Assembly: GCF_019916085.1 (NCBI RefSeq)
Contig: NZ_CP049834.1
Span: forward strand, 713,501 to 777,500
From: Aquirufa lenticrescens
Lineage (GTDB): Bacteria > Bacteroidota > Bacteroidia > Cytophagales > Spirosomataceae
Reading direction: 5' to 3'
DNA length: 64,000 nt
Shown: piece after piece, positions 13,218-44,199 of the stretch
Position numbering within the stretch: position 1 is the stretch's first letter
Layout: the number at the start of each line of letters is the position of its first letter
The notes under the pieces: generated by a model
The model's database searches: none
What the model was told of the DNA's origin: nothing
The model's input: the letters and a program-made list of their open reading frames with translations, nothing else
Position numbers and translations under genes: made by a program

Positions 13218-13292
13218 TGGTCCCACTAGGATTCGAACCTAGGACCCCCTGCTTGTAAGGCAGGTGCTCTGAACCAGCTGAGCTATAGGACC
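13218..13292 (-). tRNA. tRNA-Val (anticodon TAC)
   Basis: A 75-nt cloverleaf reads on the minus strand. The acceptor stem GGTCCTA pairs with TGGGACC (one G-T wobble), with discriminator A. The D-arm (GCTCAGCTGGTTCAGAGC), an anticodon stem CCTGC/GCAGG with loop CTTACAA (anticodon TAC) and the T-arm GTTCGAATC are all present. CCA is not fully encoded. Confidence 0.97.
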
Positions 13293-20746: not shown

Positions 20747-21871
20747 TTAATTTGCTAAAACCGTTTTTAAACTTTGTAAAAATTGATCCGCAATTTTTTG
20801 ATCGATCGCTAAGCTCGGCAAAAGACGCAAGGTATGTTTCCCAGAATAACCGCAGAAGATGTGTTCTTTAAATAATAAAGCATCTCTCACGGTCCCCACA
20901 GGCTGCTCCACCTCAATCCCAATCATCAATCCGCGACCTCTCACCTCGGTAATTCCATTAATGCCTTTTAGCTCTTTTTGAATATAGTCACCCACTTTCG
21001 AAGCATTCTCGATCAACTTTTCTTCTTGAATCACATCCAGCACCACATTCGCCGCCGTACAAGCCAGGTGATTCCCTCCAAAAGTCGTCCCCAACAATCC
21101 ATAACTCGCCTGAATATGCGGCGCGATTAACACCCCACCGATAGGGAAGCCGTTGCCCATACCTTTGGCAGTCGTCATCATATCCGGATGAATCCCCGCA
21201 AACTGGTGCGAGAAAAACTGCCCAGAACGGCCATAGCCACACTGCACCGAGTCCAAAATCAATTGCGCTCCCGTCTCATCACAACGCTTTCTCAACGCCT
21301 GCAAGAACGCATCGCTCGCCACCTGAATACCTCCCACACCTTGAATTCCTTCCACAATCACCGCCGCCGTTTCTTCCGTAATCCCCGCTTCCAATCCCTC
21401 AATGCCATTAAAGGGCAAGAAGCTCACATGCGACGTATCATTTACAGGCGCCACAATGCTCGGATTATCCGTCACCGCCACAGCCCCAGCCGTTCTCCCG
21501 TGGAAAGCCTTCGAAAACGCCACCACCTTCTTACGACCCGTATGAAACGACGCTAATTTCAAGGCGTTCTCATTCGATTCCGCCCCTGAATTCGTTAAAA
21601 ACAAAGTATAATTTTCGTATCCAGACACGCGACCCAGCTTCTCCGCCAGCTCTTGCTGTCCTGAAATGATGATCGAATTCGAGTAAAAGCCAATGTTGTT
21701 TAGCTGCTCCGTCATTCGCTTCACGTAAGTTGGATGCGAGTGTCCAATGGAAATCACCGCGTGACCACCATATAAATCCAGGTATTCCTGGCCGTTTTTG
21801 TCCCACACCGTACTTCCTTTGGCTTTTACAAGCTCGATGTCGTAGAGGGGGTATACGTTGAATAAGTTCAT
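20747..21871 (-). CDS. argD: Acetylornithine/succinylornithine aminotransferase
   Basis: 374 residues of a class-III PLP aminotransferase. K236 in TTAKGMGNG is the Schiff-base lysine, and NSGAESNENALK and HGRTAGAVAVT are family blocks. The PLP-ring aspartate block reads LILDSVQCG, with Ser where many family members have Glu after the Asp. It is downstream of argC in the GNAT-argG-argC-argD run. Bacteroidota often make arginine through N-succinyl intermediates, so the substrate may be succinylated; that is inference. The start codon sits 4 nt from a hairpin-TTAGTC array. Confidence 0.93.
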   Translation of the reverse strand: MNLFNVYPLYDIELVKAKGSTVWDKNGQEYLDLYGGHAVISIGHSHPTYVKRMTEQLNNIGFYSNSIIISGQQELAEKLGRVSGYENYTLFLTNSGAESNENALKLASFHTGRKKVVAFSKAFHGRTAGAVAVTDNPSIVAPVNDTSHVSFLPFNGIEGLEAGITEETAAVIVEGIQGVGGIQVASDAFLQALRKRCDETGAQLILDSVQCGYGRSGQFFSHQFAGIHPDMMTTAKGMGNGFPIGGVLIAPHIQASYGLLGTTFGGNHLACTAANVVLDVIQEEKLIENASKVGDYIQKELKGINGITEVRGRGLMIGIEVEQPVGTVRDALLFKEHIFCGYSGKHTLRLLPSLAIDQKIADQFLQSLKTVLAN

Positions 21872-21875
21872 AATA

Positions 21876-21935
21876 TTAGTCGCTGCTTCGCAGCTTTAGT
21901 CGTCACTTTGTGACTTAGTCGACTTCGTCTTAGTC
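21876..21935. repeat. Hairpin-TTAGTC array upstream of argD
   Basis: Read on the plus strand: TTAGTC (21876), hairpin GCTGC-TTC-GCAGC, TTTAGTC, hairpin GTCAC-TTT-GTGAC, TTAGTC, hairpin GAC-TTC-GTC, TTAGTC (ending 21935). Three perfect stems with 3-nt loops alternate with a constant spacer. Here the spacer strand is antisense to both argC and argD, unlike the other arrays in this window. Confidence 0.85.
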
Positions 21936-21944
21936 CGGAGGGAA

Positions 21945-21999
21945 CATTTACCATTCACCACTTACCATTTAACATTCATTTACCATTCACCATTTTTTA
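21945..21999. repeat. ATGGTGAATGGTAAATG-type direct repeats starting at argC stop
   Basis: On the minus strand, directly after the argC stop TAA (21997-21999), the words ATGGTGAATGGTAAATG, ATGTTAAATGGTAAGTGG and GTGAATGGTAAATG follow each other. They lead into the hairpin-TTAGTC array. It is low-complexity imperfect tandem repetition of about 7-8 nt words. Confidence 0.65.
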
Positions 22000-22938
22000 A
22001 AAGCCCACAGCTTTTAATTTCAATCCAGCATCTTCCTGCCACCCCAGCATCAAGTTCATATTCTGAACTGCTTGGCCGGAGGCTCCTTTAATCAAGTTGT
22101 CGATCACGGAGCTGATGAGGATTTGGCCCTCATGGACCTGTAAATGAAGAAAACACTTGTTCGTATTCACCACTTGTTTCACATCGACCGCTTGTGGGCT
22201 GAGGAAAACGAAGGGAGAATTCGCGTAGAATTCTTCGTATAGTTTTTCGGCCTGTTCCTGCGTCCCGCTATAAGGCGTGTACATATTCGCCATGATCCCG
22301 CGCGAAAAATTGCCGCGGTAAGGGATAAAATGGATGGCCTTCTTTGTACCCAAAGTCTGTTTAATTTCTGCCAAATGCTGGTGCGTAAACGTCTTGTACA
22401 CACTCACATTGTTATTTCTCCAGGAGAAATGGCTAGTAGGTGAAAGCGATTGACCCGCGCCTGTCGAACCGGTGATGGCTGAAACGTGCACGTCTTCGGT
22501 AATTAATCCAGCGGCCGCTAGAGGCAAAAGGGCTAATTCGATGGAAGTGGCGAAGCAACCAGGGTTTGCGATTTTGGTCGCGGACTTGATCTTTTCTTTT
22601 TGGAATTCGGCTAAACCATAGACGAAGCCTTCGGATTCATCGCGGAAGTCGGTGCTTAAATCGATGATTTTCGTGTGCCAAGGAATGTCGTTCGCGGCTA
22701 GGAATTTCTTCGATTCGCCGTGCCCGGAACATAAAAAGAGGACGTCTACAGGTGTAAGGTCTTTGGAAAAGCGTAAATGCGTAGAGCCCAATAAATCCGT
22801 GTGCACATCCGAGATCAATTTTCCCGCTTGTGAATTCGATAAAATACAGGTCAAATGCACATCTGGGTGATTCACTAAGATTCTTAGTAATTCGCCTCCA
22901 GTGTAGCCTGCGGCCCCTACGATTCCGATCTTTGCCAT
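21997..22938 (-). CDS. argC: N-acyl-gamma-glutamyl-phosphate reductase
   Basis: 313 residues. The Rossmann motif GIVGAAGYTGGELLR is at the N-terminus, and the catalytic cysteine C128 lies in ANPGCFATS. The HFIPYRGNFSRGI block marks the family. It reduces N-acyl-glutamyl-phosphate to the semialdehyde in arginine synthesis. Only one base separates it from the upstream argG, so they are co-transcribed. The length fits the type-1 short form. Confidence 0.96.
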   Translation of the reverse strand: MAKIGIVGAAGYTGGELLRILVNHPDVHLTCILSNSQAGKLISDVHTDLLGSTHLRFSKDLTPVDVLFLCSGHGESKKFLAANDIPWHTKIIDLSTDFRDESEGFVYGLAEFQKEKIKSATKIANPGCFATSIELALLPLAAAGLITEDVHVSAITGSTGAGQSLSPTSHFSWRNNNVSVYKTFTHQHLAEIKQTLGTKKAIHFIPYRGNFSRGIMANMYTPYSGTQEQAEKLYEEFYANSPFVFLSPQAVDVKQVVNTNKCFLHLQVHEGQILISSVIDNLIKGASGQAVQNMNLMLGWQEDAGLKLKAVGF

Positions 22939-25648: not shown

Positions 25649-26677
25649 ATGTCTAGGCCCATTCTTGTCATCAAATTCGGTTCATCATCTATCACCCATA
25701 AAAATGGGGAGGTGAATGAGCAGACTTTGGAAAAGATCGCAGCCCAGGTTTCTAGCCTCGCAAAGGACTACCACATCGTCCTCGTCTCCTCCGGAGCCGT
25801 AGCCGCAGGAAAAGCCTTTTTGACGAATTACAAAGGCACGCTTTCAGAACGAAAAGCAGCCGCAGCGATCGGAAACCCGATCCTCATTGCAAAATACAAC
25901 CAGTATTTCTCAAAATACGGCATCGCCATCGCCCAATCGCTTTGCGAACGCCACCACTTTTCAAACCGCGAATCTTTCCTGCAATTAAAGGAAACCTACA
26001 CGGAACTTTGGAAAAGCAACGTCATTCCCATCGCAAACGAAAATGACGTCGTCTCTAACACCGAACTTAAATTCTCCGACAACGACGAACTCGCGACCTT
26101 GATTGCGACCGGATTTGGCGCAGAAAAACTCTTAATATCTACTTCCGTAGGCGGACTCTTAGACGCGAATGGCGAAATCATCCGCCATGTCCCTAAGATC
26201 GACGCCTCCACTTTATCCGTCGTTTCATCCGACACCTCATCCACCGGTTTAGGCGGCATGATCTCGAAACTCACCTTCACTCGCCTTGCCATGCGCTTAG
26301 GTATCAAGGTCGTGATCTTCGGACTAGAAAATGCAGGCGGAATCGTAGACGCATTACACGAAAAAATAGGCACGGTCTTCGAAGCAGGTAAAGCCAGCTT
26401 AACCGCCCGCCAAAAATGGCTCGCCGCCGGCAGCCTCATCACCGGCAAAGTCGTCCTCGACAAAGGCGCCGTTAAAGCCATCACCTCCCGCAAAAGCCTT
26501 CTATCCGTGGGCATCACTGAAATCCTCGGCGATTTCATGAAAGGCGAGGTCATCGAGTTATTGGATTCCACTAAAACTCCATTTGCCATTGCCCGGGCTA
26601 GATGCTCGAAGGCGGAGCTGGAGGAGGCTGGAAAAGGGGTGGAGGTGGCTAACGCGGACGATATAGTTTTGATTTAG
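25649..26677 (+). CDS. proB: Glutamate 5-kinase
   Basis: 342 residues. An amino-acid kinase domain (VIKFGSSSI, LVSSGAVAAGK, NENDVVSN, FSDNDELA, TGLGGMISKL) is followed by a PUA domain (residues 260-342). It phosphorylates glutamate in proline synthesis. proA is not adjacent. The stop codon TAG lies inside the first TTTAGTC of a hairpin array. Confidence 0.96.
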   Translation: MSRPILVIKFGSSSITHKNGEVNEQTLEKIAAQVSSLAKDYHIVLVSSGAVAAGKAFLTNYKGTLSERKAAAAIGNPILIAKYNQYFSKYGIAIAQSLCERHHFSNRESFLQLKETYTELWKSNVIPIANENDVVSNTELKFSDNDELATLIATGFGAEKLLISTSVGGLLDANGEIIRHVPKIDASTLSVVSSDTSSTGLGGMISKLTFTRLAMRLGIKVVIFGLENAGGIVDALHEKIGTVFEAGKASLTARQKWLAAGSLITGKVVLDKGAVKAITSRKSLLSVGITEILGDFMKGEVIELLDSTKTPFAIARARCSKAELEEAGKGVEVANADDIVLI

Positions 26678-26772
26678 TCACGACTTCGTCGTTTAGTCAC
26701 CACTTCGTGGCTTAGTCATCGCGATGCGATTCAGTCACGACTTCGTCGTTTAGTCGTCCTGCGGACTTAGTC
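26673..26772 (+). repeat. Hairpin-TTAGTC array starting at the proB stop codon
   Basis: Six spacers (TTTAGTC, TTTAGTC, TTAGTC, TCAGTC, TTTAGTC, TTAGTC) separate five hairpins: CGAC-TTC-GTCG, CCAC-TTC-GTGG, ATCGC-GAT-GCGAT, CGAC-TTC-GTCG and GTCC-TGC-GGAC. Stems are perfect although their sequences differ. The first spacer, 26673-26679, contains the proB stop TAG (26675-26677). Confidence 0.9.
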
Positions 26773-26795
26773 ATTGCATGTTATAAAATAAAAAA

Positions 26796-26823
26796 GTCCG
26801 AAAAGATTGATTTCTCTCCGGAC
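26796..26823. terminator. Weak hairpin between proB and secA arrays
   Basis: GTCCG (26796-26800) and CGGAC (26819-26823), preceded by an A tract and followed by CCCTTT, lie between the two oppositely oriented arrays. It may terminate both convergent units. Confidence 0.4.
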
Positions 26824-26828
26824 CCTTT

Positions 26829-26906
26829 GACTAAGGCGCTTTGCGCCGACTAAATCGCGTAGCGATGACTAAGACGAAGTCGCCAAAGGCGCTTTGCGCC
26901 GACTAA
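26829..26906 (-). repeat. Hairpin-TTAGTC array starting at the secA stop codon
   Basis: On the minus strand: TTAGTC (26906-26901) containing the secA stop TAG, hairpin GGCGC-AAA-GCGCC, a degenerate spacer TTTGGC, hairpin GAC-TTC-GTC, TTAGTC, hairpin ATCGC-TAC-GCGAT, TTAGTC, hairpin GGCGC-AAA-GCGCC, TTAGTC. It is in sense orientation to secA and opposed to the proB array 56 bp away. Confidence 0.9.
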
Positions 26907-29900
26907 GCTATAACCACCGCTCTACCGCTCTCCACATCCTGTTCTACCGTCTTGTACTTCACATCTTCTTTGATGCTTCCGTCAGCGTATTGAACAGTCA
27001 CGCGTTGATTGCGGTCTGCTATTTTGATGGCTTGGCGAGGTGCCGCACGTTCTACTGAAGGAGTAGACGGATCGTGGTATTCCTCTTGTGCGCCAGCTAG
27101 GCCACCTAATAAAGAGGAGATTGCATCGTCTTTGCTCATTTGCAATTTAGGTGCTTTCTCTTTCGGTGCTTTGGCAGTCGATTGATTCGTTTGTTGAACC
27201 GCTGGAATTTCTGCTTTGATCACAAAGCTGATGGTATCCATGTTCACGCGGGCTACGAAACGCTGGAACAAGTTCACCGATTCGAATTTGTAGATCAATA
27301 AAGGATCTTTTTGTTCGAATACGGCATTTTGAACGGATTGTTTCAAATCATCCATCTCGCGTAAATGCTCTTTCCACTCTTGATCGATCAGCGATAAAGT
27401 GATGAATTTCTCCATCTCTTTCACCACCTCTTTACCTTGAGTTGAAATCGTTTTGTCTGCATCTACGACGATGCCTGTCGTCATTTGGCCATTGCTAATC
27501 GGCACTTGAATGCCAGAATAACCGTGTTGTTTCGCTTCTTGCGCGACCTGAATGACTTGAGAGGCGATGACCTCGTTTTTCGACTTATAATGTTGCTCTG
27601 CCGCTAGGAATAATTGTTCCGTTCTTTGGTCATTATTCAATTTATTGAACGCTGATGCATCGAATGGAGGCTCCATTCCTAATAGTTCGATCGTTTTCAA
27701 TTCGAAATCATCGTAGCTTGTAAACTGCGTCGAAATATCGCGGCAAACGTCGAACAAGATGTTGACGATATCCAATGATAGTCGCTCGCCTAAAAGGGCG
27801 TTTTGACGACGTTTGTAGATGGCGTTACGTTGGTAGTTCATCACGTCATCATATTCTAATAGACGTTTACGAATGCCAAAGTTATTCTCTTCCACCTTCT
27901 TCTGCGCTCTTTCAATCGACGACGTAATCATCGAGTGTTGAATCACTTCGCCTTCTTCCATTCCCAGACGGTCCATCACTTTCGCGATACGGTCTGATCC
28001 GAAAAGACGCATCAAGTTATCCTCTAAGGAAACAAAGAACTGTGACGAACCCACATCCCCTTGACGACCCGCACGACCACGTAACTGTCGATCGACGCGA
28101 CGTGATTCGTGGCGTTCCGTACCGATGATCGCAAGACCACCAGCGGCTTTAGATTCTACACTTAATTTAATATCGGTACCACGACCCGCCATGTTCGTAG
28201 CGATCGTAACCTTGCCTGACTGACCTGCTTCTGCGACGATTTCCGCCTCGCGAGCGTGTTGTTTGGCATTCAATACATTGTGTTGAATCTTGCGAATCGT
28301 TAACAAACGGCTTAATAATTCTGAGTTCTCCACCGAAGTCGTACCTACGAGGACTGGTCGTCCGCTCGCTACTAATTCTTGAATCTCTTCCGCCACCGCG
28401 TTATATTTCTCGCGCACCGTACGGTACACTTTATCCTCATGATCCTTACGTTGAATCACGCGATTAGTAGGAATCGAAACGACATCTAGTTTGTAAATGG
28501 TCCAAAACTCGCCCGCTTCCGTCTCCGCCGTTCCCGTCATACCCCCTAATTTGTGGTACATACGGAAATAGTTTTGGAGGGTAACCGTGGCATAGGTTTG
28601 GGACGCATCCTCTACATTCACGCCTTCTTTCGCCTCAATCGCCTGATGCAAACCGTCCGAATAACGGCGGCCTTCCATCACACGACCCGTCTGCTCATCC
28701 ACGATCTTCACCTTGCCATCTACTAAGATGTATTCCGTATCCTTCTCGAATAGGGTATAGGCCTTTAATAATTGGCTCACGGTGTGAATACGGGATGCTT
28801 TTTCGTTGTATTCTTGGATCAATTGCTCCTTCGCGCCTAAACGGTCAGCGTCAGACAGCTCCTTGTTTTGCTCTATCTTGTTTAAGTCGATAGACAAATC
28901 TGGTAGTACGAAGAAGTTCGGATTCTCGGTGTTGCCACTCATGAATTCCAAACCCTTTTCGGTCATCTCCACCTGGTTGTTCTTCTCCTCGATTGTGAAC
29001 AATAACGGTGCTACCGCCTCTGGCATCAATTTTTGGTTGTCTGCTAGGAACGTGCTTTCCGTCTCGTTCATCAATTGCTTCATTCCGTTTTCAGAAAGGA
29101 ACTTGATCAATGGCTTCGACTTAGGTAAACCTTTGTAGGCACGGTATAGGGCTAAACCACCCTCTTTCTTATCACCAGCGGCAATCAATTTCTTCGCTTC
29201 CACTAAGAAGTTTTGAACGATCTGCTTCTGCGCTTCTACTAATTTGTGAATACGTGGTTGGAAGGTTTCGAACTCTTGTTCGTCACCTCTTGGAATCGGT
29301 CCTGAAATAATCAATGGCGTTCTCGCGTCATCGATTAACACGGAATCGACCTCATCGACCATTGCGAAATGATGTGGTCTTTGGACTTGATCTTCTAAAC
29401 TACGCGCCATGTTATCGCGCAAATAATCAAAGCCAAATTCATTATTCGTACCATAGGTAATGTCCGCCATATAAGCGGCACGACGCTCTTCCGTATTCGG
29501 TTCGTGTTTATCGATGCAATCCACTTTTAAGCCGTGGAATTCAAACAATGGCGCGTTCCATTCGGAGTCACGTTTCGCTAAGTAATCATTCACCGTTACT
29601 AAGTGAACCCCGCGACCCGCTAAGGCATTTAAATAGGTAGGAAGGGTAGAAACGAGTGTTTTTCCTTCACCCGTACCCATTTCAGAAATCTTTCCTTGGT
29701 GTAATACGATACCCCCGATTAGCTGCACATCGTAGTGCACCATATCCCAGGTAATCTCATTTCCAGCGGCTAACCATTGATTTTTCCAAATCGCTATCTC
29801 GCCTTCAATCACCACATTCTTCTTCTTAGAAGCGATGAATTTATCTTCTACCGTAGCAGCAACCACTAATTGCTTATTCTCTGTGAAACGACGCGCCGTT

Positions 29901-30256
29901 TCCTTCACCACCGCGAAGGCTTCTGGCAAGATTTCCATCAATACCACCTCTAAACGTGAATTACGCTCTAGTTGAAGGGCATCGATTTCTTGGAAAAAAC
30001 GGTCTTTCGCATCCACATCCTCCGTTTCTTCAGCAGAGGTATGTAGGGAAGTAATTTGATTATCTATATCGGATAAGAAAGCGGCGATGCGCGATTTGAA
30101 CTCCGCCGTTTTACCGCGTAATTCGTCATCGGACAAGCTGGCTAACTTAGCGTACTCGTTTTTTATATTCTCAACGATAGGCATCAACGCTTTAATGTCG
30201 CGCTCTGATTTCGTGCCAAAAATTTTCGTTACCGATTTACTGATGAATGAAATCAT
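26903..30256 (-). CDS. secA: Preprotein translocase ATPase SecA
   Basis: 1117 residues. Walker A MGTGEGKT is at 193-200, the DEAD-type MVDEVDSVLIDDARTPL follows, and the motor motif GRGTDIKL and arginine fingers HESRRVDRQLRGRAGRQGD are intact. The length, about 200 longer than E. coli SecA, is usual in Bacteroidota. The C-terminus (QDVESGRAVVIA) lacks the Cys-rich zinc finger used for SecB and ribosome binding in many SecAs. It drives export through SecYEG. The stop codon is part of a repeat array. Confidence 0.98.
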   Translation of the reverse strand: MISFISKSVTKIFGTKSERDIKALMPIVENIKNEYAKLASLSDDELRGKTAEFKSRIAAFLSDIDNQITSLHTSAEETEDVDAKDRFFQEIDALQLERNSRLEVVLMEILPEAFAVVKETARRFTENKQLVVAATVEDKFIASKKKNVVIEGEIAIWKNQWLAAGNEITWDMVHYDVQLIGGIVLHQGKISEMGTGEGKTLVSTLPTYLNALAGRGVHLVTVNDYLAKRDSEWNAPLFEFHGLKVDCIDKHEPNTEERRAAYMADITYGTNNEFGFDYLRDNMARSLEDQVQRPHHFAMVDEVDSVLIDDARTPLIISGPIPRGDEQEFETFQPRIHKLVEAQKQIVQNFLVEAKKLIAAGDKKEGGLALYRAYKGLPKSKPLIKFLSENGMKQLMNETESTFLADNQKLMPEAVAPLLFTIEEKNNQVEMTEKGLEFMSGNTENPNFFVLPDLSIDLNKIEQNKELSDADRLGAKEQLIQEYNEKASRIHTVSQLLKAYTLFEKDTEYILVDGKVKIVDEQTGRVMEGRRYSDGLHQAIEAKEGVNVEDASQTYATVTLQNYFRMYHKLGGMTGTAETEAGEFWTIYKLDVVSIPTNRVIQRKDHEDKVYRTVREKYNAVAEEIQELVASGRPVLVGTTSVENSELLSRLLTIRKIQHNVLNAKQHAREAEIVAEAGQSGKVTIATNMAGRGTDIKLSVESKAAGGLAIIGTERHESRRVDRQLRGRAGRQGDVGSSQFFVSLEDNLMRLFGSDRIAKVMDRLGMEEGEVIQHSMITSSIERAQKKVEENNFGIRKRLLEYDDVMNYQRNAIYKRRQNALLGERLSLDIVNILFDVCRDISTQFTSYDDFELKTIELLGMEPPFDASAFNKLNNDQRTEQLFLAAEQHYKSKNEVIASQVIQVAQEAKQHGYSGIQVPISNGQMTTGIVVDADKTISTQGKEVVKEMEKFITLSLIDQEWKEHLREMDDLKQSVQNAVFEQKDPLLIYKFESVNLFQRFVARVNMDTISFVIKAEIPAVQQTNQSTAKAPKEKAPKLQMSKDDAISSLLGGLAGAQEEYHDPSTPSVERAAPRQAIKIADRNQRVTVQYADGSIKEDVKYKTVEQDVESGRAVVIA

Positions 30257-41899: not shown

Positions 41900-42994
41900 A
41901 TGAATGCCAATTTAGACATTGTACCGATGCAGGACTGGATTCAGACGAACGGCAAACCCTTGATCATCGCGGGTCCCTGTTCAGCTGAGACAGAAGAGCA
42001 AGTATTAGAAACCGCTCGCCGTATCAAAGCGGAGGGTTATGCTCACATTATGAGAGCGGGTGTTTGGAAACCTCGTACACGTCCAGGCAGTTTTGAAGGG
42101 ATGGGAGAACCAGCTTTGAAATGGTTAGTAGAAGCAAAGAAAGAAACAGGATTACCTTTAGCGATTGAAGTAGCTACACCAGAGCACATCGAATTAGCCT
42201 TGAAATACGGCGTTGATGTTTTATGGATCGGTGCTCGTACAACGGTTAACCCTTTTAACGTACAAGATTTAGCGGATGCTTTGAAAGGAGTAGACGTTCC
42301 TGTATTAGTAAAGAATCCAGTGAATCCAGATTTAGCTCTTTGGGTAGGTGCTTTTGAGCGTCTTCAAGGATCAGGCATCAAGAAATTAGGTGCTATTCAC
42401 CGTGGTTTCTCGAATGCACAAGAAACAAAGTACCGTAACTCACCTATGTGGGCGATGGCAGTAGAATTAAAGCGTTTGTTCCCTCAAATGCCTTTAATCG
42501 GTGATCCATCTCACATGGCTGGAAAGCGTGCTTTATTGATGGAATTGTCTCAACGTATTTTGGATTTGAACTACGATGGTATGATCATCGAAACGCACCG
42601 CGATCCAGATGCAGCTTGGTCAGATGCTTCACAACAAGTGACTCCTGAGAAATTAGGCGAAATGTTACGTGACCTAGAAGTTCGCAACGCGAGCTACGGC
42701 GCTGACTTCTCTGATGAATTAGCAGGTCTTCGTGAGAAAATCGACAACATCGACCGCGAATTGTTAGAAGTTCTTGCTGCTCGTATGTCAGTTGTAGAGA
42801 AATTAGGTGAATACAAGCGTGATAACAACGTAGCGGTATTGCAATTAGATCGTTGGAAGCAATTACACAACGACCGTGCAAACCAAGCGAAAGGTTTAGC
42901 TTTATATCCAGAATTCGTAGAAGAACTATTCAAATTAGTTCACTTGGAGTCTATCCGTAAGCAAACGGAAGTGATGAATAATGCAGCGGTTTAA
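41900..42994 (+). CDS. DAHP synthase - chorismate mutase fusion
   Basis: 364 residues. Residues 1-265 are a type-I-beta DAHP synthase (IAGPCSAET, RAGVWKPRTRPGSFEG, GARTTVNPF, LVKNPVNPD, IHRGFS, GDPSHMAGKR). Residues about 275-355 are an AroQ chorismate mutase (LREKIDNIDRELLEVLAARMSVVEKLGEYKR). It links the first shikimate step to the prephenate branch, and the mutase domain usually mediates feedback control. aroB is 3.6 kb away but not linked. The stop codon lies in a 9-bp hairpin that begins a repeat array. Confidence 0.95.
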   Translation: MNANLDIVPMQDWIQTNGKPLIIAGPCSAETEEQVLETARRIKAEGYAHIMRAGVWKPRTRPGSFEGMGEPALKWLVEAKKETGLPLAIEVATPEHIELALKYGVDVLWIGARTTVNPFNVQDLADALKGVDVPVLVKNPVNPDLALWVGAFERLQGSGIKKLGAIHRGFSNAQETKYRNSPMWAMAVELKRLFPQMPLIGDPSHMAGKRALLMELSQRILDLNYDGMIIETHRDPDAAWSDASQQVTPEKLGEMLRDLEVRNASYGADFSDELAGLREKIDNIDRELLEVLAARMSVVEKLGEYKRDNNVAVLQLDRWKQLHNDRANQAKGLALYPEFVEELFKLVHLESIRKQTEVMNNAAV

Positions 42995-43072
42995 TCGCGG
43001 AGCGATTAAATAGTCGTCACTTTGTGACGTAGTCATCGCTACGCGATTTAGTCGCGACTGCGTCGCTTAGTC
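42990..43072 (+). repeat. Hairpin-TTAGTC array starting at the DAHP synthase stop codon
   Basis: The stop TAA (42992-42994) lies in TTTAATC, a variant of the spacer that also forms hairpin TTTAATCGC-GGA-GCGATTAAA. Then TAGTC, GTCAC-TTT-GTGAC, gTAGTC, ATCGC-TAC-GCGAT, TTAGTC, GCGAC-TGC-GTCGC and TTAGTC follow, ending at 43072. All four stems are perfect. Confidence 0.9.
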
Positions 43073-43089
43073 CTAAGAAATATTTTGAG

Positions 43090-43121
43090 AATAGCCCTGG
43101 TTCATCTGGGGCTATTTTTAT
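43090..43121 (+). terminator. Terminator of DAHP synthase transcript
   Basis: AATAGCCC (43090-43097) pairs with GGGCTATT (43109-43116), then TTTATTT. It follows the first hairpin array. Confidence 0.7.
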
Positions 43122-43130
43122 TTAAAGTCA

Positions 43131-43193
43131 TTAGGTCGCCGCAAGCGGCTTAGTCGTCATTGCATGACTTAGTCATCGCTACGCGATTTAGTC
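43131..43193 (+). repeat. Second plus-oriented hairpin-TTAGTC array
   Basis: TTAGGTC, hairpin GCCGC-AA-GCGGC, TTAGTC, GTCAT-TGC-ATGAC, TTAGTC, ATCGC-TAC-GCGAT, TTAGTC. It lies beyond the terminator, so it would only be transcribed by read-through. Confidence 0.85.
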
Positions 43194-43225
43194 AAAAAAT
43201 ATTTTGAAATTTGAACACGGACAAA

Positions 43226-43328
43226 GACGAAGTCGACTAAGTTGCGAAGAAACGACTAAGCGACAACGTCGCGACTGAGTCACGCGGTGACGACTAAGTC
43301 CGTAGGACGACTCAACTACGGCGACTAA
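43226..43328 (-). repeat. Hairpin-TTAGTC array at the EamA permease stop codon
   Basis: On the minus strand: GTTAGTC (inside the last permease codons), TTGAGTC containing the stop TGA (43314-43312), GTCC-TAC-GGAC, TTAGTC, GTCAC-CGC-GTGAC, TCAGTC, GCGAC-GTT-GTCGC, TTAGTC, an imperfect GTTTC-TTC-GCAAC, TTAGTC, GAC-TTC-GTC, TTTGTC. It faces the plus-oriented arrays of the convergent gene. Confidence 0.9.
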
Positions 43329-44199
43329 CAGCGTACCCCGCCCAAACAATCAGCCCCATTCCTAGAAACGTCAACACGTCCGGTAACCCGTGGCCTAATA
43401 CTACTTCGATGATGATGGAGAAGATAACCGCGCTGTTCCCCACTACGCCTACAATACTGGCTTTTTCGTTCAATAGCGCCTGCGTGGTAAAGTATTGAAC
43501 GCCTAAGGCTAAAAGTCCCATCACTAAAGCCCAGATCCATTCCGCTAGAGAAGGCTGCACCCAAACACCCGTCACAAAACTATTTTCAAAACCACCTAGC
43601 GTTCCCGTTAGAAGGGAAATAGTCGAAGCGATTAATCCTGCCCCCATAAAAGAAACAACGACCCAGCGGGAATCGTAATATTTTTGTGCCTCTTTGATTG
43701 CTAAATAGCCAAGGGCCGTTCCCATCGCATAGATGATTCCGGTACTATGATGCCAAAGCGATCCCCCACTGCCGGGTTGAAAAATGAGCAAGATGCCGAA
43801 GAAGCCGATCAATAGAAATAATACTTGTTTGCTGGAAAGTCCTTCATTTGGCAATAAAAAGAAGCTAAAAACAGCGATGAAGAGCGGGAATGCCTGTCCA
43901 TAAGTGTTCGTTAAGGACAAGCCGAGGTGTTCCAGCGTGTAGAAGAGGCAATACAAGGTGAAGGCCCCCAAAAGTCCGCGTAGGATAATGAAATAGAGTT
44001 TACCACCCGCTTGAACGGCCGGTTTTCGGTATAGGCTCGTTAATAAGAAGGGTAATCCTACAGCGCTTCGGAAAAAGACAAGTTGAATGGAGCTGAAAGT
44101 GTGGCTCATTTCTTTGGCGATCGCAGACATAATCGCGAAGCAAAGCGAGGAGAGCAACATGAAAAAGACTCCTTTATTGGAGTAAATTCGTTTCAACAT
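43312..44199 (-). CDS. EamA/DMT family transporter
   Basis: 295 residues with ten membrane segments in two EamA repeats (MLLSSLCFAIMSAIAKE..., then GIIYAMGTALGYLAIKEAQK). Substrate unknown; the family exports metabolites or amino acids. The last six codons (AVSRRS) are encoded by repeat sequence containing GTTAGTC, so the C-terminus has probably been rewritten by the array. It is divergent from ridA. Confidence 0.88.
   Translation of the reverse strand: MLKRIYSNKGVFFMLLSSLCFAIMSAIAKEMSHTFSSIQLVFFRSAVGLPFLLTSLYRKPAVQAGGKLYFIILRGLLGAFTLYCLFYTLEHLGLSLTNTYGQAFPLFIAVFSFFLLPNEGLSSKQVLFLLIGFFGILLIFQPGSGGSLWHHSTGIIYAMGTALGYLAIKEAQKYYDSRWVVVSFMGAGLIASTISLLTGTLGGFENSFVTGVWVQPSLAEWIWALVMGLLALGVQYFTTQALLNEKASIVGVVGNSAVIFSIIIEVVLGHGLPDVLTFLGMGLIVWAGYAVSRRS

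Follow-up and report, generated by a model that had tools for sequence, protein, structure and literature searches.

What are the strings of very small hairpins that face each other between proB and secA in Aquirufa lenticrescens, how do their stems stay paired, and do they serve the genes that they follow? We analysed a window of 64,000 nucleotides (positions 713501-777500 of the 2,505,188-base single-contig genome; window G+C content 41%), together with related genomes. The two genes, named from the reading in the initial annotation, converge: proB (25649-26677, + strand) ends at 26677 and secA (26903-30256, − strand) at 26903. Behind each gene stands an array that points toward the other. 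The array behind proB (26674-26772, + strand) consists of six spacers, five TTAGTC and one TCAGTC, alternating with five hairpins: ACGAC-TTC-GTCGT, ACCAC-TTC-GTGGC (with an outer A.C mismatch), ATCGC-GAT-GCGAT, ACGAC-TTC-GTCGT, and GTCC-TGC-GGAC. The array behind secA (− strand, read from 26906 to 26829) contains GGCGC-AAA-GCGCC, an irregular stretch including GAC-TTC-GTC, ATCGC-TAC-GCGAT, and GGCGC-AAA-GCGCC again.

Most of what the initial annotation had said of this locus was confirmed by the sequence. It had described facing arrays of TTAGTC plus hairpin at the two stop codons, with both TAG stops being the TAG of the first spacer, and this is the case for proB (26675-26677) as well as for secA (26905-26903). 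Its spacer, TTAGTC with variants TTTAGTC and TCAGTC, has the constant core claimed, but more variants exist (TGAGTC, TAAGTC, TTGGTC, CTAGTC, and AAAGAGTC). Most stems are indeed perfect, 4-5 bp long and closed by a 3-nt loop, but some are mismatched, as is ACCAC-TTC-GTGGC, and 3-bp stems also occur. The weak terminator placed between the arrays is better described as a predicted intrinsic terminator in the secA direction (26791-26828, − strand), with a 16-bp stem ending in a T run; by eye, its core is nearly identical in genomes G021, G027, and G014.

Arrays were also found at two further sites in the window, and elsewhere in the genome. At 21876-21935 (+ strand), three hairpins occupy the gap between an argC-like gene (21997-22938, − strand) and an argD-like gene (20747-21871, − strand), antisense to both. 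Degenerate 7-bp repeats (ATTYACC-like on the + strand) adjoin this array at approximately 21945-21992, after the argC-like stop. The third site (43010-43328) includes an array (43010-43072, + strand) behind a DAHP synthase-like gene (41900-42994, + strand), a second forward array (43150-43193, + strand) past a terminator-like hairpin, and a facing array (43220-43328, − strand) behind an EamA-like transporter gene (43312-44199, − strand). The names of these four genes were taken from their translations. A search of the window against Rfam 15 at the gathering score matched none of the arrays, the sole match being a tRNA at 13218-13292.

The pattern is more than chance. TTAGTC alone was mildly enriched in the window (40 versus 30.2 expected, 3 of 100 shuffles being as high), and the pattern TTAGTCN{8,14}TTAGTC occurred 79 times in the genome versus six times for the reversed pattern. 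The initial annotation had reasoned that genome-wide counts matching a shuffled model would mean chance or simple-repeat decay; the pattern survived, with the reversed pattern rather than a shuffled genome as the control. When array-bearing stretches were reversed, 53 and 99 candidates turned up, all unit lengths taken together, and none of them was perfect. Together with the covariation described below, these controls reject chance and simple-repeat decay.

Each unit comprises TTAGTC and a hairpin of 3, 4, or 5 bp with a 3-nt loop, so that inserts are mostly 9, 11, or 13 nt long and unit periods are 15, 17, and 19 bp. Perfect inserts predominated in stretches of the own genome (21 of 29 for 9 nt, six of 12 for 11 nt, 67 of 82 for 13 nt) and at the other array-bearing loci (97 of 111, 47 of 57, and 292 of 329, respectively), all of these stretches having been chosen because they bear the pattern and orthologous arrays of different species each being counted separately. 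Loci L051-L115 and L117-L136 were likewise picked for the pattern and thus do not provide presence rates. Among the own-genome 13-nt inserts, 67 of 82 paired at five of five positions and 11 at four of five. When spacers were defined so as to retain every 13-base unit, 390 of 436 inserts were perfect, 39 had one mismatch, five had two, and two had five. A total of 16 different perfect 5-bp stems were present in the own genome and 24 at the other loci. Of the 137 distinct units, 125 had C-G as the innermost pair and 130 had G-C or A-T as the outermost one; the three pairs in between varied, with preferences.

That structure is kept while stem sequence changes, as the initial annotation had proposed, was supported by covariation. 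The alignment comprised 52 of the 137 distinct units, all from the own genome; the two of 436 inserts that had more than two mismatches had been removed beforehand. Of 260 cells, 94 were changed on both sides, two on one side, and nine were unpaired (96.5% paired). Each of the five stem pairs showed at least one two-sided change, the innermost just one. The covariation score was 0.840 versus 0.302 in shuffles, none of 500 being as high; two other measures, counting pairs or types, stood out less, being reached by 17 and 18 of 500 shuffles. The sequence changes of perfect stems are naturally recorded in these arrays. With two-sided changes abundant and one-sided ones nearly absent, the arrays bear on the choice between template switching and stepwise compensation in stem evolution.

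Under selection on RNA, G.U pairs are the usual intermediates and are classically favoured. The 39 single mismatches comprised 20 A.C, eight G.T, and 11 others, and those between convergent genes included 17 A.C and four G.T. This lack of a wobble preference counts against plain RNA-level selection and points to a DNA-level process that matches both arms at once. Template switching is able to create and maintain perfect hairpins (PMC8794818). The arrays could be a functionless DNA-level product of template switching and block duplication, persisting behind stop codons, where insertions would be harmless; the near absence of one-sided changes and the unfavoured G.T mismatches fit such an origin. 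The near-constant spacer and the stem preferences would be unexpected under free drift.

The order of units within arrays bears on this origin from both sides. Directly adjacent units (gap of at most 8 nt) shared a stem in only two of 470 cases, against 33.1 expected from within-run shuffles (minimum 15 in 5000) and 39.6 from across-run shuffles (minimum 24 in 1000). A looser count gave nine of 537 versus 47.5 expected, seven of the nine vanishing at a gap of at most 8 nt. By genome set, the looser count showed clear depletion in the own genome, JAIXWQ, CAJCBY, CAMDSI, and SEWZ and none in DLPD (four of 79 versus 5.0 expected), and four further sets were too small. Equal stems were common at lag 2 (32 of 291), and tandem blocks of two, three, and four units occurred 16, four, and six times; the arrays thus copy blocks yet avoid equal neighbours. 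The blocks are what a functionless product of duplication should contain, but the avoidance calls for a force that removes equal neighbours and spares longer tandem blocks, and loss by simple slippage should affect both alike. The persistence of 38-bp tandem blocks speaks against simple slippage by 19 bp as the source of the rule.

Neighbours with an equal stem and a different loop were also rare (three versus 12.4 expected), while neighbours differing by one stem pair were not avoided (10 versus 11.6 expected). Cross-pairing between neighbours with different stems was slightly less than in shuffles (−5.27 versus −5.51, sd 0.076). With RNA energies, equal neighbours fused into one hairpin were better than separate ones by 3.3-5.3 kcal/mol in all nine units tried; with DNA energies the two forms were about equal, the separate one being better by up to 0.8 kcal/mol. 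We know of no REP family with a comparable rule, which provides a quantitative, testable constraint.

Array placement was assessed using gene calls from a simple script rather than a standard gene finder. Of 208 arrays found, 152 had at least two units. The upstream gene was read in the same direction as the array in 108 cases, 80 of which lay in convergent gaps. A further 30 arrays were antisense to both neighbours, such as the one in the arg operon (21876-21935), seven lay between divergent genes, and seven were unclassified for orientation. The sense orientation noted initially for the arrays at proB and secA therefore holds for 108 of 152, with 30 running against both neighbours. A stop codon lay within the first spacer in 32 of the 108 sense arrays. 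A terminator-like site occurred within 200 nt after 51 of the 108 sense arrays, compared to 28 of 108 random 200-nt windows; such a site preceded 12, and 52 had one on neither side. The units themselves are followed by TTAGTC or a variant and not by the T run of an intrinsic terminator.

Neighbouring arrays within 350 bases of each other, single-unit arrays included, formed 43 facing, five back-to-back, and 15 same-direction pairs. All five back-to-back and five of the 43 facing pairs were overlapping detections; after their removal, 38 pairs faced each other and none stood back to back, which agrees with the facing layout reported initially. This strict geometry would suit a single long hairpin, made of two facing arrays and serving as a bidirectional terminator, and the whole proB-secA array region does fold at −96.9 kcal/mol (z −7.3) with the arms pairing with each other. 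By itself, the proB array folded only mildly better than shuffles (z −1.78, eight of 200 as good), and the predicted fold minima were not simple strings of separate hairpins. However, facing partners are not co-adapted. The nine own-genome facing pairs shared stems no more than other pairs did (12 of 174 versus 338 of 4476), and across all carriers the 35 true facing pairs paired worse than swapped ones (mean duplex energy −72.6 versus −77.0), the true mean being weaker than all 60 swaps. In addition, 92 of 145 sites, single-unit arrays included, had a single array only. We therefore regard the long hairpin, although predicted by folding, as very unlikely. Arms that are not selected to pair are consistent with a functionless origin.

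The reading that we favour, tentatively, is that the arrays are REP-like 3'-end elements whose stems are kept perfect by template switching and whose hairpins are under selection to fold separately, and that the string shields mRNA and insulates convergent neighbours. Arrays usually begin at or soon after a stop codon and, in about half of the sense cases, are followed by a terminator-like site, so they should be transcribed; in the transcript, micro-hairpins would follow one another in a string, with single-stranded UUAGUC linkers between them. Both the perfect stems and the multi-base stem changes would come from template switching as DNA is replicated, and arrays would lengthen by copying blocks of at least two units. 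Units with a stem equal to their neighbour's would be lost, because both would fuse into one longer hairpin. The string may then shield mRNA 3' ends and insulate the convergent neighbours from each other.

Several observations count against this 3'-end reading. Wobble pairs are not favoured on the presumed mRNA strand, and 30 of the 152 arrays are antisense. Nor is there avoidance between neighbours whose stems are one pair apart, even though most of the cross-pairing would still be expected of them. Our scan placed no terminator-like site on either side of 52 of the 108 sense arrays, and fused and separate forms are about equal in DNA energy. The mild fold of the proB array, the predicted minima other than simple strings, and the two less extreme covariation measures weigh in the same direction. 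We consider a functionless mutational product nearly as likely as a shielding and insulating 3'-end string.

The arrays are restricted to part of the genus. The spacer-pair pattern was counted 26-105 times in ten Aquirufa genomes, 0-7 times in the other 28, and 0-8 times in 61 genomes from elsewhere in the family and order. A covariance model matched those same ten of the 38 Aquirufa genomes. Among 291 genomes drawn from the order, with stricter filters, it matched only the window's own genome, the other nine carriers evidently being absent from that draw. One 25-base unit form, searched against contigs of 84,980 species (own records possibly excluded), matched 65 stretches, every one of them from a record named Aquirufa antheringensis, Cytophagaceae bacterium, or, in the case of a single MAG, Spirosoma fluviale. 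The one match on a viral contig, inside an ORF of this phage-like sequence, had a hairpin with imperfect pairing; the 350 bases examined contained no other unit, and the match was taken as chance. Nine of the ten carriers form a clade in a midpoint-rooted, 24-taxon tree of two loci from which G027 was left out. We infer that the arrays belong to the A. antheringensis branch of Aquirufa.

Within this branch the arrays turn over. At the secA-proB locus an array was present in G000, G021, G027, G014, and G007 and absent in G019, G012, G002, and G023, with one decayed unit retained in G019 and G030 unreadable. At the DAHP synthase-EamA locus an array was present in G000, G021, and G007, and absent in G012, G019, G030, G002, G014, and the covered part of G023, with G027 unreadable. 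The sister pairs G000/G019 and G007/G023 differ in their version of the DAHP-EamA region, with gene identities of 94.0% and 96.7%. The version common to G000 and G007 was 92.5% identical over 319 aligned bases, with differences mostly near the far end, whereas the gene was 89.4% identical. The secA-proB version of G019 and G023 was similarly closer than its gene (92.5% versus 89.8%), while that of G000 and G007 was less alike than its gene (84.9% versus 88.7%); clear outliers were two of 19 comparisons, of pairs that we chose. At two loci (L205 versus L210/L207; L138 versus L145), the sharing of intergenic versions thus conflicts with the species tree. Exchange between species or long-kept alleles would explain this sharing. 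That relatives carry unrelated repeats or none at the same loci fits a product without function.

Array-free Aquirufa have repeats of another kind. Tandem arrays with a 7-bp unit, intergenic and in some cases facing, were present in stretches of the array-free G022, G011, and G015 and absent from those of G028. Between the DAHP and EamA genes, by eye, seven of 20 array-free genomes (G003, G037, G011, G022, G035, G031, and G010) had facing purine-rich 7-bp repeats, eleven had no 7-bp repeats, G006 was cut off, and G008 was unreadable; the locus was not shown for eight genomes of the genus. In the own window, G022, and G015, both direct and inverted repeats were concentrated in convergent gaps; in G011 this held for direct repeats only. 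The hairpin arrays therefore seem to represent, in one branch, a more widespread habit of the genus. Individual intergenic examples in array-free Aquirufa are GGGTTAG ×25, AATGTAG facing CATTCTA, and AGAGGTA facing CTTACCT (L194:5114-5609, L194:16358-16458, and L185:6608-7352). After the DAHP synthase-like gene in L207, L208, and L204, facing heptamer arms flank a core of 6-3-6 micro-hairpins (ATCGCC-TGC-GGCGAT, ATCCGC-GAA-GCGGAT, and variants); by eye, portions of the core recur at secA in G019 and G023. This core may be a small mobile element.

A further version of an RNA-level role, which we hold to be rather doubtful, is that selection acts on the difference between neighbours in a string of mutually different hairpins, each folding independently and leaving the UUAGUC linkers single-stranded as putative, repeated landing sites for an RNA-binding protein, and that versions of the string circulate between species as intergenic alleles beside unrelated facing heptamers.

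Alternatively, the units could act as hairpins or cruciforms in DNA, binding a nucleoid protein or gyrase or blocking collisions, and be tolerated because Aquirufa lacks SbcCD. Their nearly strict Watson-Crick stems fit this idea. SbcD (TIGR00619) matched none of the 38 Aquirufa genomes, whereas 28 of 39 other genomes of the family scored over the cut-off and 32 had any match. For SbcC (TIGR00618), none of 38 Aquirufa genomes scored over the cut-off, which is weak evidence because just one of 14 controls did. Array-free Aquirufa, however, likewise have no SbcD match. In samples of 80-100 kb, the SbcD-negative G108, G057, and G055 showed little or no intergenic excess of inverted repeats, and the SbcD-positive G100, G041, G053, and G038 did show an excess; this comparison left out five G104 pieces and L249, which were too short, and the G028 stretches. 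Loss of SbcCD as a general cause of intergenic inverted repeats is contradicted by these relatives, and we consider a DNA-level element improbable. In L254-L258 (G100, another genus of the family, SbcD present), inverted repeats take up a very large share of the convergent gaps (0.615, in only 449 bases).

We found no paper in the open-licence PMC literature that names the array element, and the main text of an Aquirufa paper (PMC10821818) contains no word starting with "repeat", "palindrom", or "intergenic". Among known systems, CRISPR resembles the arrays in alternating a constant with a variable element; here, by layout alone, the constant part is 6 bp and the variable part 9-13 bp and self-complementary. 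The initial view that CRISPR and attC do not fit was borne out on unit layout alone. In the mitochondria of algae and fungi, hairpin repeats (double-hairpin elements) are likewise small variable palindromes across intergenic DNA, but organellar, and we know of no fixed spacer or neighbour rule in them. Heptamer direct repeats occur in Beggiatoaceae, Cyanobacteria, and Bacteroidetes, those of the Beggiatoaceae genome mostly just upstream of start codons (PMC4679880). The Aquirufa arrays share with them a lineage-specific, intergenic, tandem arrangement, and the 7-bp arrays of certain array-free Aquirufa, several of them facing, are a further likeness within the genus, whereas the heptamers are plain direct repeats without a variable perfect hairpin (PMC4679880) and the array periods are 15, 17, and 19 bp instead of 7 bp.

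The closest likeness is to REP, BIME, and REPIN elements. REPs combine an extragenic palindrome with an unpaired GTAG/CGTC tag, occur as facing pairs and prefer convergent gaps, and most families prefer heterodimers (PMC3733652). The Aquirufa arrays are similarly extragenic, lie behind genes in facing pairs with a tag beside the palindrome, and have a neighbour rule that recalls the heterodimer preference. They differ in having units of 15-19 bp with the tag TTAGTC, not palindromes of 20-40 bp with a GTAG/CGTC tag, and in forming head-to-tail strings, with diverse stems and as many as 13 units. The likeness would suit a mobile family moved by a RAYT (Y1) transposase, but stems are not conserved as a family sequence, and RAYT, sought through PF01797 alone (E ≤ 0.001), matched in none of the ten carriers versus 12 of 28 non-carriers; PF01797 scored over the cut-off in 10 of 38 Aquirufa genomes. 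The arrays are therefore not a standard REP system, and mobility by RAYT, unsupported for PF01797, seems to us the least likely explanation. The initial statement that REP does not fit was nevertheless too strong: location, facing pairs, and tag are REP-like, while the diverse stems, the avoidance of equal neighbours, and the absence of any RAYT match are not. The element separates a REP-like layout from RAYT transposition.
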